From Patiria pectinifera (taxonomy: Eukaryota > Echinodermata > Asteroidea > Valvatida > Asterinidae), in assembly GCA_029964075.1 (NCBI GenBank), contig CM057146.1, forward strand, positions 7,273,501-7,337,500: a stretch of 64,000 bases of DNA, given 5' to 3'. Below the pieces are notes generated by a model. The model had not been told where the DNA came from. It saw nothing but the letters and a program-made list of their open reading frames with translations, and searched no databases. The position numbers and the translations under genes are program-made. How positions within the stretch are numbered: the stretch's first letter is position 1; the number at the start of each line of letters is the position of its first letter. This document shows, piece after piece, positions 24,419 to 31,805 of the stretch.

Positions 24419-27400
24419 TCACTGTAGGATGTGAAGTATGCCCACCACAGAATCTGCTTCCGCTAAGTCATCCGATTCATCTGAGGACGATGCATCTGAT
24501 GAATCTCCGAGATTCTGCTGACTTGAAGCATCAGGTCGCTCCGAGGCTGTTGACTTGGACTTGCTTTTGGCCCGTTGCTTCTTGGCCTTCTTCCTTGACT
24601 TTGTCAGCTGCGATGTGAACTTCATCAGAGATCGTCTACCTTTCTTGGACCCAGAGTCCTGGAGCTTCTGAAGAATGGCTTCATCGGTGATGGCCTTTCC
24701 AGACACAAGGAAGCAGAGACATTTTCTCTTCTTTGCCGACTTGAGCTTGTGGATGAGGCCTTCCTCTTCGATCTCAACATACTGTCCTTGTCCCATGAGG
24801 TCCAGCAGCTGATCCTCTTCACTTGATGTTTCCTCACCGCTTCCGGCCTGGCGCAGGGAACTCCGAGCCCGCTTACGAGATGATCTTTTCAGATCCTTGA
24901 CAGGAGGGAAGATGGTCTTGTCGATAACCGACGGGTCCAGGGGATAGATCCCTGACTTCTTAAAAGACGCCTGGAGATTACTAGCTGAGAGTGCCACCGT
25001 GTACGTCTTGCAGACGAGTTCGCAGACTGAGTTCTTGTCAATGCCAGTGCAGCCGTTGTCCTGCATGTATCTGTGACACTCGTGGTTGTAGAGGTGCTCG
25101 AAAGGCCCGAAGCATCCAAGATCACCAGGCTGCAAAGTGTGGCCCATGTGGGCTGGAAGGATGAAGAGTATCATGTTATGTTGCCTTGCCCAGCTGACCA
25201 GCGACAACGAGATGCTCGCCCTGTGGCCATCGTAGAGAATCAGGCAGGGCTTGTCTGCATCACTTCCTTGACCGTACTTCCCAAAGTGGTTCAGCAGGTA
25301 ATCCTTGTAGATGTCCGTGTTGGACCAACCGGACTCGCTGACATTGCCACTGGCACCTGGCGTGCTTCCCTTCAGGAGCTGGTGGCTCATCCTGTGGCCT
25401 GGATATACAAAATAGGGTGGAATCTGGCAACCTGAGGCGTCTCCACAGCCGATGACAGTCACGGCAAGCTGGACCTCCGACCCAGCTTCTACCTGACAGA
25501 CCTTGACACTCTTCTCATTGAGCATGAAGATGCGCTCGGGGTCATCCATCAGGTCATGCATGCTCATCAGCTGTTGCAGTTCTGTGTAGTAGTTGGAGAT
25601 GGCGTCCTGAGAGCTTGCCCTGGTTCTCTGTGCATCCAGACTCCCGGGATGACTGACGACGTTCAGACCGGGCCATCGCTGAATGAACAAGCCATACCAC
25701 CTTTTGGACAGCAAGTGGTCCTTGTCCCGCTTCTTGAGGCCGACGGCGTACGCATTTGCCACATTCAGCACCTCCGTCCTACCGAGCCCGTACCCACAGT
25801 CCACCATCCTTTTCAGATGCTCGACCAGATGGGTCTCTTCATCTAAGCTGAGTACAGGATCCGGCCCAGAACGGGCACCCTCTGGCCCCATGTTCTTGCT
25901 CAACCTTGATCTGATGGTCGACTCCGGCAGGCCAAATTTCCGAGCAGCCCCTCTGACTGATTCCCCTTCTTCCTTGATGGCACGATAAGCAAGGGCCATG
26001 GAGGTGGAAGAGTAGGACCTGTAATCTCTGTTTGCCTTGGATTTCTGGGGAATTTTTATGTGACAGTGGGGAAAAAATAGTTACTAACAACAAACTGATG
26101 TAGCAAAGTTTCGGACTCCTGTGTAACTTAATGTTTACTAAATGTGTGCATTATCATATATTTACCTTTTGGGGTTTTTTTGGTTTAAACTAATTATGCC
26201 ATTTAATAATAATACCCCAGGCGCTGTTGCATTTTTTCCCTCAGAATTAACATCCCTTAAATCCCCTGCGATTAAAAAATTCTCTTCTCACTGCCATTTT
26301 CCTTTGGTGTGGAGCCTGGAAAATATTCACCACTTCAAGTTTGTACTAACCAAAAACAGAATTCTTTTGTGTTTTCTTTAATGCAATCTCAAAGTAAGAG
26401 AAGAAAGTGCTCAGTGATTTTATGGATGTGCTTACTAAAGACATTTGCTATAAAGCATTGAAAATATTTGCTAAGCACAATTGGATTACCAGCCAAAATG
26501 TCATGCAAGATTGATGCCTTAACTGGTTCTCTGCTAATCCTTCACTTAGCACACAAATTTGCTTAGCATTATTTTCTTGGCTACGGCTGGAAATAACACA
26601 CGAGTCTATGGGAAGCGGCTTCAGCGGCTAGCCAGTGGCTTTCCCGGCCGCAGCCACGTGATTCGGACAAGGCCTTATTTTCATACCTTTCTCTTTCCTC
26701 TGCTCCCCGTGGAAGCTACAAGTTGCTTTGGACTTCCCACCCTGGCCCTGGGCTCACTTTTAATCCTCGCCCAGGTGCTGCACATGTTGACAAATTTCTG
26801 CACTGCACTGCGGGGAAGGAAGGCGTAGTTCTTCCCAATCTGAAAGCAATAACCACGTGGATGTATAAAGCAATTTTGTTATTAACTACATATTAAAAAA
26901 AGTCATGATGAAATGTGGGTGTCTTAAACATTATTGGGTTTTTTTGCTGGCACTCAAGGTGGAGGTGTCTCACCCATACTAATTATTTTAACTACAAATT
27001 ATAGACACCTGAATGGGTACTTGAGGCCAATTTCATGATTTTAAAACCTGCAAAGCACTAAGATGTTGCTCACGAAAACAAAAAAACAGCCAGAGAAGGG
27101 GGTAGAGTTAAGGAACTTTGGGTTATGGATACATGTAGTCCAAAAAATTGAGACTCTCGTTACTGTGTATGAGAGTCCCAAACCTTAAGGTACTGAAAAC
27201 ATGCAATACAAGAAAATAGCCAGTCCAACACTGCTTCAGTGCTGCATCAATCAATTGTGCCAAAAGAAACATGCGGCATGAACCAGGAACTAGTCCCTTT
27301 TAACTACACATTTCTCCATAGTCAGTCACCAGACTAATGACACTGAATGAAGAGGTCAGTCTTTTCAAACAGTTGGACCATGGTTGGACATGTACCAGTC

Positions 27401-29868
27401 TAGTCTTAAGCCTTATTTTGAAATCACTTGACTTCCATCTCATGTGCGAAATATTGAAGAAATGTCTCCTTTAAAATTGATTCAAGTCTGCAAACTTGGT
27501 TGGTGAAATACTGAGGACCTTTTCTTTGCCCAATGGAATTTTGGAGAAATTTGCAGGCTAAAGAGTGAGTAAAGTTGGCCTAGTTTAGTTTTGCACGTTT
27601 CAGAGCACTCCAGGTCCCAGTTTGGGATACATGCAGAGGCGAAGGGGAGGATTTTTAGTTCATTCCCCATGTACCTCTTTCAGCAGCTTTTTGTAGCCCC
27701 CACTGTGGTTGAGGGTTTCGGTGTGAATTTTCACCAGGAGGGTGTGGAAGTCCTCAACGTAGGCCACACACCGCCACTCTCCAAACACTCCATCCTCACC
27801 ACAATCGAGGCTTTCAAACTGAAAGAAAAAGATGGAAAACGGTTAGCTATTTGTGTTATCAAACTAGTCTGCCTGATTTGTTATTGGTCAGACCAAGGTT
27901 GACCAGCCATGTCAACATCAGTGACATCTTGATAAGTCAAACCTCAAGGGAACAGGTTCAAAATTTGATTTAAGCAGAGTTTTGAGTTAAGCAGGGGTTG
28001 TATTTCATTGTAATACTACTGAAGGCAATGGATTCTTTGTTTGACTTAACAGTTGTTTTGAGTTATCAGAGTTTGACTTATCGAGATTTCACTACAAGTT
28101 TGTAAATTTACACAGACAAATGACGGGAGGATGAAAATTACGTTCGTTGAATTGTAAAGTTGGAAAACAATTTTTTGGATGGTTCGTTCAGAAACTGAAA
28201 AGGGAAAGATTTCTGGGCAGTTTTGGCTCTCCTAAGCCACACTTCTACAAGTAAGAACCAGTATTGTTTATTTTGAATTTTCTCAATTTCTTTTGCAGGT
28301 AAGATTACAGAATGAGTGACACACTCTTTTCTCCATGACCTACGTGGACAGTTTTTGCAAACATAATTTCTGGTCTAAGAAATACATGTAAGCTTCAAAT
28401 TTTGTTAGAAAGAACACTTTGCTAAGATTTGTAATCATGCCTCCTTTACAGACGTACCTAGGCCTACTACACAATCCACCAGATTGGGCAAGGAACAACT
28501 TCCACACTTTTCAAAATAAAATGAAATATCTTTAACAGAAAGTTGTTTGAAAATGCTTAAAAAGCAATTTGTTTCCAATTTTACTCCAAATAACACCAAC
28601 CCAAGATCAAGACATATTGGTATACTAGTCCGAGTAACTTGGACCCAACTTATCGCCTTTTTTAACATTTGGATATGGTCTGGCGATAGTGGGGTCCAAG
28701 CTAATACCGCGACCTGGACAACATCATCCTGTCACTGTCCCAAAAACCAACATTTTCCAACAAAAAACATCAGATTGTAGACATCGATAATTAAGATGGT
28801 TGTACGTTAAATTTCCGATCGTGTTTAATGTTTGAACGACGCGATTTCTTCTACATGCGCGATGCATCGATTATGATAATGAGTAGACTGGATTACGTTT
28901 GTAAACACATGTGCATTTCAAACGGTAATTTTATGGCTGGTACCAGTTCAAGCTGGTTCCCGATTCCAAATGCAAATCGCGTCATTCAAACATCAAACAC
29001 GATCGGAAATTTAACGTTCAAGATCGCGAGAGGCTTCTCGAAAAACGAAAAAAAAATTTTCACTTTTCCGGATCAGGCAACTTACTCACCAAATGTTGGT
29101 TTTTGGGACTGTGTGTCTCAGGTCGGGTTATTGGACCTTACTATCGCGCCAGACCAAATGTTAAAATTAAAAAAGGCGATAAGTTGGGTCCAAGTTACTC
29201 GGACTATTGGTATACTATCATGACTATTGGTACAATTTGTAGAGAGGTTAGAAAATGCATCATTCTAATTGCTTAAGCATGTTAAGGCTTTAGTTAAGCC
29301 ACTTTTAAAACATTTCCTCTGACTATGATGGTCACTCCAAAAGTTTAATCTTCAAAAACAAAACATATAGAATAAATAAAATATCTAAAGTAAACGAATA
29401 AAAATTAATGGAAAAAAATGAATACTTTAAATTTGGCATGGAACGGTAATTTACGAACAGAATTATAGTTATATACTATACATCCTTTCCCATCATATCA
29501 TCACGATAATTGCTTTATTGAGCGCAACAGCACCGTCGTACCTGCACTGTATGGCTCGGCACGCACAGCACATCCTTCAGGCCGAGCTCCGGGAACTGCC
29601 GCAGCTCCAGCTCCTTGTTACGGACCCAGTAGTTGAGGTTCGGCAGCGACTTGTCGTTTTTGTCGAGCAACCCTCTCAGGCATTGGATGATTTTTTCTCC
29701 CTTCGCCCTCCTGATGGTCTTGCTGCTCGTCTTACCAATCAGGGGAAATGCGGCATCGCAGAATGCGGTATATTCCTCGTAGTCTACACAGCTATTATTT
29801 TCGATTTCGGTGGTCGTTTCGATCGTCGTGACCACCTCCACGTTCTCAACGCTCTCTACGCCGTCCAT
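24419..29868 (-). CDS. NOL4/KRBA2-like domain fused to pogo-type DDE transposase (domesticated?)
   Basis: Model on the minus strand: exons 29868-29542, 27818-27675, 26839-26687 and 26044-24419 (749 residues), all joined in phase 0 with good GT-AG sites. Exons 1-3 resemble the NOL4/NOL4L N-terminus and the KRBA2-type integrase-like module: PNLNYWVRNKELEL, RCVAYVEDFHTLLVKIH and NYAFLPRSAVQKFV. Exon 4 has a psq-type helix-turn-helix (about 217-262), a CENPB/Tc5-type DNA-binding domain (about 267-352) and a DDE_1 core. The second and third Asp are in ILYDGH (about 480) and LQPGDLGCF (about 516). The first Asp position is Asn in FMLNEKS (about 384). The psq domain begins upstream of the exon's own first ATG, so an upstream exon is needed. 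A Lys/Arg-rich, Ser-rich tail follows, suggesting a nuclear DNA-binding protein. If the exon 3 donor is skipped, the frame stops two codons later (209 residues). The transposase part is firm; the fusion is inferred. Confidence 0.72.
27919..28094. mobile_element. Small MITE with pogo-like inverted ends
   Basis: The left end CAGTGACATCTTGATAAGTC and the inverse of the right end (TAGTGAAATCTCGATAAGTC) match at 16 or so of 20 bases. The interior repeats TTGAGTTAAGC/GACTTAACAG-like steps. It lies in intron 1 of the fusion gene. Confidence 0.5.
28628..29204. mobile_element. Foldback transposon (577 bp) with 13-bp direct repeats
   Basis: GTCCGAGTAACTTGGACCCA at the left is a perfect inverse of the right end, and similarity continues inward for about 130 bases with small gaps. 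The element is flanked on both sides by the perfect direct repeat TATTGGTATACTA (28615-28627 and 29205-29217). Long inverted ends with a long duplication recall Mutator-like elements, though 13 bp is longer than usual. It lies in intron 1 of the fusion gene. Confidence 0.8.
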
Positions 29869-30757: not shown

Positions 30758-30853
30758 ATGTCGATGCAGCCTACCCGAAAAACTTTCTTGATCGGACCTG
30801 AGGCCGAGGCTGCAACAGAGGGTAATGGCAACATACGAGTGTCAGGACTGTGA
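30758..30853 (+). promoter_or_regulatory. Upstream ORF overlapping the zinc-finger start
   Basis: ATG 30758 opens a 31-codon frame in a different frame from the main ORF; it runs past the main ATG at 30825 and stops at 30851-30853. A second short uORF spans 30742-30801. If both lie in the transcript they should lower initiation at 30825. The transcription start is unknown. Confidence 0.45.
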
Positions 30854-31805
30854 ACAAGTTTTGCCATCAAAGCATAAACTGAAATTGCACATGAAGGTCC
30901 ACAGAAAGGGCCACAAGAAAGAGAGGCGGTTTACCTGCGATGTGTGCTCAAAGGACTTCAGTCAGCAATCCGGGCTTCAGCAACACCAGAGAACCCACAC
31001 CAATGAAAAGCCTTACCTGTGCGACTATTGCGGACGGACCTTTGCGCAAATTGGGAACCTGAGGACCCACAGCCTGCAACACACCCAGGAAGCACCCTTT
31101 GTGTGCGAGACGTGCGGTGCACGGTTCCGCAATGGCGGGAACCTTCAGAAGCACAAACAGGTCCATGCCAACGCCTACACATGCGGGGAGTGCAGCAAGA
31201 CGTTTAAGGATGCGGACCGTCTCCAAGGCCACCAGCTACTCCACGGAAACACCAAACCTTTTGCTTGTGACTCCTGCGACAAGGCATTCGTCAGCAAGAG
31301 CAAGCTTCTTGCCCACAGTCGCGTCCACACTAAGGAGAAACCGTACGCCTGTGACCTCTGCGACAAGACGTTCACTCAGAAGAGTGCTGTCAAGCAACAC
31401 CGCAAGCTCCACGCCAACGAGAAGCCCTTCCTCTGCCATGCCTGTGGGAAGAGCTTCGCCCAGAAAATCAATCTTCAAAACCATGTCACCATCCACGCCA
31501 AGGAGACTAACCTCTCCTGCAACACCTGCAAGGCGAGATTCCAGAACCAGACGGACCTGGACGCACATGAACAGAGTCACACGAGAGTCGAGCCGGTGCA
31601 ACTCGATGAGTCATTTCTCGACGCTCACGCCAGTGAGAGCTTCCATGAAGTGGATGTGTTGGATCAATGCAGTATGAGTCATTCAATGGAGGAGCAATTC
31701 CCTGGAAGTCTTTACAATGATGAGCTCGAAAGACTAATGCAAGAGGCACTGTTTAAATCTGAACTGTGGACAGCTGTCAGAGATGGCATAGATCAAGCAG
31801 TGTAG
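30825..31805 (+). CDS. Nine-finger C2H2 zinc-finger protein, intronless
   Basis: A 326-residue single-exon protein with nine consecutive C2H2 fingers, from YECQDC to LSCNTC, covering about residues 4-252. Linkers are TGEKP-like in several places (for example HTNEKPYLC, HTKEKPYAC, HANEKPFLC), typical of sequence-specific DNA-binding factors. Finger 5 follows a shortened linker (VHANAYTC). The last ~75 residues are acidic and fingerless (SFHEVDVLDQ, MEEQFPGSL), possibly an effector region. There is no KRAB, SCAN, BTB or ZAD domain. No orthologue can be named because fingers of this class are too similar. It is divergent from the fusion gene, whose start is about 950 bases away. Confidence 0.85.
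   Translation: MATYECQDCEQVLPSKHKLKLHMKVHRKGHKKERRFTCDVCSKDFSQQSGLQQHQRTHTNEKPYLCDYCGRTFAQIGNLRTHSLQHTQEAPFVCETCGARFRNGGNLQKHKQVHANAYTCGECSKTFKDADRLQGHQLLHGNTKPFACDSCDKAFVSKSKLLAHSRVHTKEKPYACDLCDKTFTQKSAVKQHRKLHANEKPFLCHACGKSFAQKINLQNHVTIHAKETNLSCNTCKARFQNQTDLDAHEQSHTRVEPVQLDESFLDAHASESFHEVDVLDQCSMSHSMEEQFPGSLYNDELERLMQEALFKSELWTAVRDGIDQAV

Follow-up and report, generated by a model that had tools for sequence, protein, structure and literature searches.

A 64,000-nucleotide stretch of the Patiria pectinifera genome (assembly GCA_029964075.1, contig CM057146.1, positions 7,273,501 to 7,337,500; the window) contained on its minus strand a four-exon gene at 24,419 to 29,868. Comparison of its sequence made it probable that this was a sea star host gene formed by transposase capture, in which a relative of the N-terminal module of NOL4 (exons 1–3, the N-module) was joined by splicing to an entire pogo-type transposase (exon 4), and that its product served as a DNA-binding regulator.

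A sequence-only reading had proposed three small exons and a transposase exon, and all four were open at the positions given below, with lengths of 327, 144, 153 and 1626 nt, each a multiple of three. The donors of exons 1, 2 and 3 were ACAGTGCAG/GTACGA, CTGAAAGAG/GTACAT and AAGAGAAAG/GTATGA (a slash marks the exon border), and the acceptors of exons 2, 3 and 4 were TTTCAG/TTTGAA, TTTCAG/ATTGGG and CCCCAG/AAATCC. All borders were GT-AG and in phase 0, including the third donor (AAAG/GTATGA) and the last acceptor singled out before, which were consensus-like and in phase with each other. The joined exons 1–4 read as a protein of 749 residues. The psq helix-turn-helix (HTH) did begin before the first ATG of the transposase exon: HTH_psq covered residues 14–51 of exon 4, and the first Met was residue 16. 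The features were as follows.

29542..29868, minus strand: exon 1 (MDGVES...HTVQ), first half of the module that resembles NOL4, from sequence and orthologue alignment
27675..27818, minus strand: exon 2, start of the H2C2-like stretch (both His), from H2C2 comparisons; 48/48 residues identical to P. miniata
26687..26839, minus strand: exon 3 (IGKNYAFLPRSAV...), which completes the H2C2-like stretch and has a basic end, GSRGKRK, from comparison with the NOL4 exon
24419..26044, minus strand: exon 4, pogo-type transposase, 541 amino acids and stop, from Pfam, alignment and tree
25892..26005, minus strand: HTH_psq DNA-binding domain, exon 4 residues 14–51, Pfam E 9.7e-5
25037..25462, minus strand: DDE_1 stretch, exon 4 residues 195–336, with the second and third catalytic Asp, Pfam E 2.9e-11
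25517..25519, minus strand: AAT (Asn) at the first catalytic Asp site of transposases, from sequence and alignment
28626..29206, no strand assigned: insertion in intron 1 resembling a miniature inverted-repeat transposable element (MITE), outside the protein, with 60-nt inverted arms 90% complementary

The joined model was compared with 5.8 billion proteins, and 22 matches were obtained at E≤0.01 (among 7998 candidates scored). Just two of them spanned the whole query, the P0005/P0006 pair: LOC119738774 of Patiria miniata (750 aa, 97% identity over the whole length, 725/749 aligned residues identical) and LOC110973627 of Acanthaster planci (781 aa, 61% identity, 99% covered, 472/739 aligned residues identical). 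The other 20 covered 45–70% of the query, and the Pfam domains listed for them were transposase domains. Identity to P. miniata was 103/109, 48/48, 49/51 and 525/541 aligned residues for exons 1 to 4, and to A. planci 61/103, 30/48, 26/51 and 355/537; the C-terminal 25 residues were identical at 25 and 24 positions, respectively. Judged by these alignments, an end-to-end match to two database proteins, with every exon contributing, is beyond chance, and it agrees with the earlier proposal of a single 749-residue protein. The host-type exons were in frame with the transposase exon by sequence and in both gene models, with predicted splicing, and the same fusion was present as a gene model in two other species. 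Paxillosida and Valvatida are placed ~185 million years apart (PMC7341131), and since Patiria and Acanthaster both belong to Valvatida, their split should be younger.

Exon 4 was identified by its sequence as a pogo-type transposase, as had been proposed, both a DDE_1 domain (E 2.9e-11) and an HTH (HTH_psq, E 9.7e-5, 22.4 bits against a cut-off of 20.4) being matched in Pfam. Exons 1–3 scanned singly gave no Pfam match at E≤1. Sites were counted by eye in an alignment of 24 rows: the window, P. miniata, A. planci, five own-genome copies (of the other matches in this genome, only L002–L006) and 16 of the 20 other database relatives, all but P0019, P0021, P0022 and P0025. At the site of the first catalytic Asp the window and P. 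miniata had Asn, and A. planci and L004 kept Asp; among the 20 other rows it was Asp in 19 and Tyr in P0026. The second and third catalytic Asp of exon 4 had 35 residues between them. The triad was N-D-D in the window and P. miniata and D-D-D in A. planci, a complete DDD being absent from the window. A loop of 13–15 residues just after the first catalytic site was deleted in the window, P. miniata, A. planci and L004 and in none of the 20 other rows; the same four shared the motif EKSVK. The three fused proteins and L004 lacked a Cys/His zinc-like motif that could be read at the C-terminus in 14 of the 20 other rows. On a maximum-likelihood tree the window, P. miniata, A. planci and L004 formed a clade with support 100/98. 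Exon 4 is, from its sequence, derived from pogo rather than a working pogo element, and the catalytic step has probably been lost in Patiria.

A search of solved structures with the sequence of exon 4 gave no match at E≤1. A fold model of the Acanthaster protein matched the transposases Mos1 and SETMAR/Metnase, with E values of 1.2e-6 to 4.8e-4 and a target-normalised template modelling score of 0.31–0.61. Its mean predicted local distance difference test score was 60.8, with about 43–76 in blocks of the N-module, and no claim is therefore made for the fold of that module.

The 208-residue N-module was searched against the P. pectinifera genome (best 57 candidates scored). Of the 38 matches at E≤10, three were the window exons, five resembled exon 1 and lay at C21:12797484-12800980 (E 8e-11 to 0.1), and 30 were weak. 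Exons 1–3 were found together only in the window in this search. HTH_NOL4_2nd (PF23079), the second NOL4 domain, matched the genome once, at C9:1417509-1417694 on the minus strand, and did not match the window gene. A pattern for exon 3, YAFLPRxAV, was built from the window and from what we take to be the exon 3 motif of vertebrate NOL4. In 613 Mb it matched twice, in window exon 3 and at C9:1458485-1458510 (minus strand), 41 kb upstream of the HTH_NOL4_2nd match; the reversed control gave 0. The NOL4 exon began TTTCAG/ATTGCGGAGACCTACGCC and window exon 3 TTTCAG/ATTGGGAAGAACTACGCC, with the same intron position and the same phase 0. BLASTP of the two exons gave 11/21 identical residues (E 2e-7 for this single comparison). 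Because intron position, phase and motif are the same, exon 3 and NOL4 most likely descend from a common spliced ancestor, and the NOL4 resemblance first noticed in the small exons holds to this extent. A full NOL4 paralogue was rejected, and the gene is not called NOL4, because the second NOL4 domain is missing.

An exon 2 pattern matched the window and one other place in the genome, C18:5156940, where the frame stops right after the motif; this was taken as chance. Word-based protein searches, which have limited reach, gave no match at E≤1 with the Acanthaster N-module alone (65 candidates) and, with the N-module region, only the same two sea star proteins (706 candidates).

The sequence-only reading had seen in this gene two modules derived from mobile elements. 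That an integrase-type HHCC zinc module was joined to a pogo transposase we judge distinctly unlikely, and the evidence was divided. All 30 weak genome matches (E 0.3–9.9) lay within residues 110–205 of the N-module, many in long frames, and those under L033, L035 and L038 looked by eye like Gypsy-type pol with integrase. When exons 2–3 (three sequences) were aligned by hhalign with three Gypsy-like integrase H2C2 segments, a probability of 92.8 and a score of 38.65 were obtained, against 20.63 for the best of 60 column shuffles; these segments had been chosen for having matched, and the significance is overstated. Pfam H2C2 (PF17921) scored 13.5 and 14.6 bits on two N-modules, under its cut-off of 25.5, and was not listed in the Pfam scans of full-length P0005 and P0006. 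The fourth presumed zinc ligand was Trp in the window and Cys in A. planci, where H-H-C-C was kept. The similarity of exons 2–3 to integrase H2C2 was weak but better than in shuffled controls, and the profile comparison favours a remote kinship.

KRBA2 has an integrase core (rve). No such core was matched by Pfam in the fusion protein; membership of KRBA2 was rejected, and of the KRBA2-type integrase-like module only the remote H2C2 similarity was left. An origin from a spliced host gene is favoured by the intron position common to exon 3 and the genome's NOL4; for this reason the N-module looks like exon-structured host sequence, and it is probably not a transposon insertion. Of the two modules, the origin from a mobile element was upheld for the transposase and was not supported for the N-module.

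An in-frame TGA lies in intron 3 directly after the exon 3 donor. On this reading, annotation could have merged two genes that merely lie side by side, one for a small NOL4-like protein that stops after exon 3 and one for a pogo transposase. We regard this as improbable: the same junction was present in the gene models of two species, the exon 4 frame had no ATG before the psq domain, and the donor and acceptor were consensus-like and in phase.

Other transposase copies were examined in the same genome. A protein search with exon 4 gave at least 43 matches including the window, the best others of good length being 41–49% identical. L004 (C19:21195787-21196959) was an unfused paralogue with the same loop deletion and the first Asp kept, a short C-terminus and a 3-residue insertion near the third Asp. 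The N-module was absent from the 17 kb searched upstream of it, so a transposase copy of the window lineage exists without the fusion. Upstream (6–17 kb) of 13 copies other than the window's no N-module match was better than E 0.22; that match, at L022 (47 residues), was taken as chance. L005, L006 and L007 were 97–98% identical over aligned blocks. At the ends of the shared stretch, the element copies L005 and L006 had imperfect inverted repeats, a 19-nt pair (84%) in L005 and a 27-nt pair (74%) in L006; L007 had two internal stops and no comparable pair among the five listed. Around window exon 4 (L001, 4623 bases) no convincing terminal repeats were found among the 5 of 6 inverted pairs examined; one 15-nt, 87% pair spanned the exon and was chance-like. 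A still or recently mobile transposon carrying the N-module as cargo, for which the three Asp of Acanthaster and the related copies could be cited, is very improbable, and a fused transposable element was disfavoured, given one fused copy found (a lower bound), the lack of convincing terminal repeats among those pairs, three introns and the changed first Asp of Patiria.

Several points weigh against a captured transposase acting as a regulator. Both full-length orthologues are automatic gene models and could be informed by one another. NOL4 exons 1–2 were not located in the genome (the N-module search gave no match on C9), so the tie to NOL4 depends on exon 3 and on comparison with vertebrate NOL4. 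Acanthaster retains all three catalytic Asp, and catalysis may persist there. A mouse NOL4 variant without the N-terminal region is reported still to bind its partners (PMC5343783).

The exon-1-like stretches on C21 lay in a tandem array of frames (MADAQVNRAKF...GLHDVLCQEINE; L044/L045, about C21:12797310-12800980), and both of the copies that were read had a GTAAG splice donor in the corresponding position. Directly downstream of the array was a Parvovirus NS1-like frame (L045:2117-2710, Parvo_NS1 E 2.4e-14), presumably an endogenous viral fragment. The MITE-like insertion of intron 1 contained a nested 48-nt inverted pair at 28800-29021. A 337-aa frame with C2H2 zinc fingers (30792-31805, plus strand) started ~1 kb from exon 1 and ran on the other strand, and a common promoter region is possible. 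Elsewhere in the window, Pfam matched PRPSAP-type exons (PF13793 at 12.1–12.5 kb and PF14572 at 15.1–15.5 kb), and a DDT/PHD exon at 45.8–46.9 kb was taken as BPTF.

Host-transposase fusions by transposase capture were reportedly described by Cosby et al. in 2021, under a title that speaks of vertebrates; as we understand the class, host exons are joined to a transposase, as they are here, and we know of no NOL4-type partner in it. Such fusions have been described from vertebrates (PMC8700633), and CENPB, POGK and POGZ are chimeric pogo-derived genes, POGK being listed as DN35D (PMC7386202). The window gene shares with POGK and POGZ an entire pogo transposase and an extra domain close to the N-terminus, and POGK too has lost a catalytic residue (DN35D). 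It differs from POGK in that the added domain is NOL4-type instead of KRAB, that the gene is from a sea star and that the first catalytic Asp is changed, whereas the second is changed in POGK. It resembles NOL4 in exon 3 motif and intron position and differs in having no HTH_NOL4_2nd match. SCAND3 joins SCAN, integrase and hAT parts; here, in contrast to SCAND3 and KRBA2, the integrase core was unmatched, and the transposase was pogo instead of hAT. SCAND3 has been singled out as the exception, a fusion gene that stems from a retroelement (rve, integrase) (PMC3257199).

Literature searches pairing NOL4 with transposase, or at least two of KRBA2, NOL4 and transposase, gave no such fusion in titles and abstract starts. 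No paper was found naming LOC119738774 or LOC110973627, and searches on invertebrate or sea star cases gave no such gene in titles and abstract starts among the matches listed. The earlier remark that no protein of this architecture had been described agrees with this literature, but the databases already hold the NOL4-transposase fusion proteins of both sea stars, uncharacterised. The class of host-transposase fusions is known; the NOL4-pogo combination was not found in print, and the partner module is new.

If the gene arose by transposase capture, exons 1–3, an exon-structured relative of the NOL4 N-terminal module, would have been spliced onto the exon 4 transposase before the Patiria and Acanthaster lineages split. 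The loop deletion would have come before or with the fusion, and the catalytic change later, in Patiria. NOL4 is reported to act as a cofactor for Mlr1 and Mlr2, which are helix-turn-helix transcription factors (PMC5343783). The window gene combines a NOL4-type module and a psq helix-turn-helix in a single chain. The simplest mechanism would be that of a DNA-binding regulator. In it, the psq HTH would still bind DNA and target the protein, the DDE fold would serve for dimerisation or as a structural part and would be catalytically inactive in Patiria, and the N-module would offer an effector surface recruiting nuclear cofactors. The outcome would be a sequence-specific regulator of transcription or chromatin.

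Transposase capture is best documented in vertebrates, and the present gene is an echinoderm case with a new partner module. Its orthologues fall on either side of the change at the first catalytic site, which holds Asn in Patiria and Asp in Acanthaster, and near-identical transposon relatives occur in the same genome. It should therefore be possible to order the steps of domestication: the fusion, the deletion of the loop, and the losses of the C-terminal zinc motif and of catalysis. The fusion gene also points to a testable idea on the origin of the NOL4 N-terminus, tentative and on balance unlikely: the NOL4 N-terminal module may itself be an ancient domesticated integrase HHCC domain, in which case the fusion would join two independently domesticated recombinase parts. 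All four presumed zinc ligands and the three catalytic residues remain in the Acanthaster protein, which on this reading may keep DNA-cleaving or end-joining activity.

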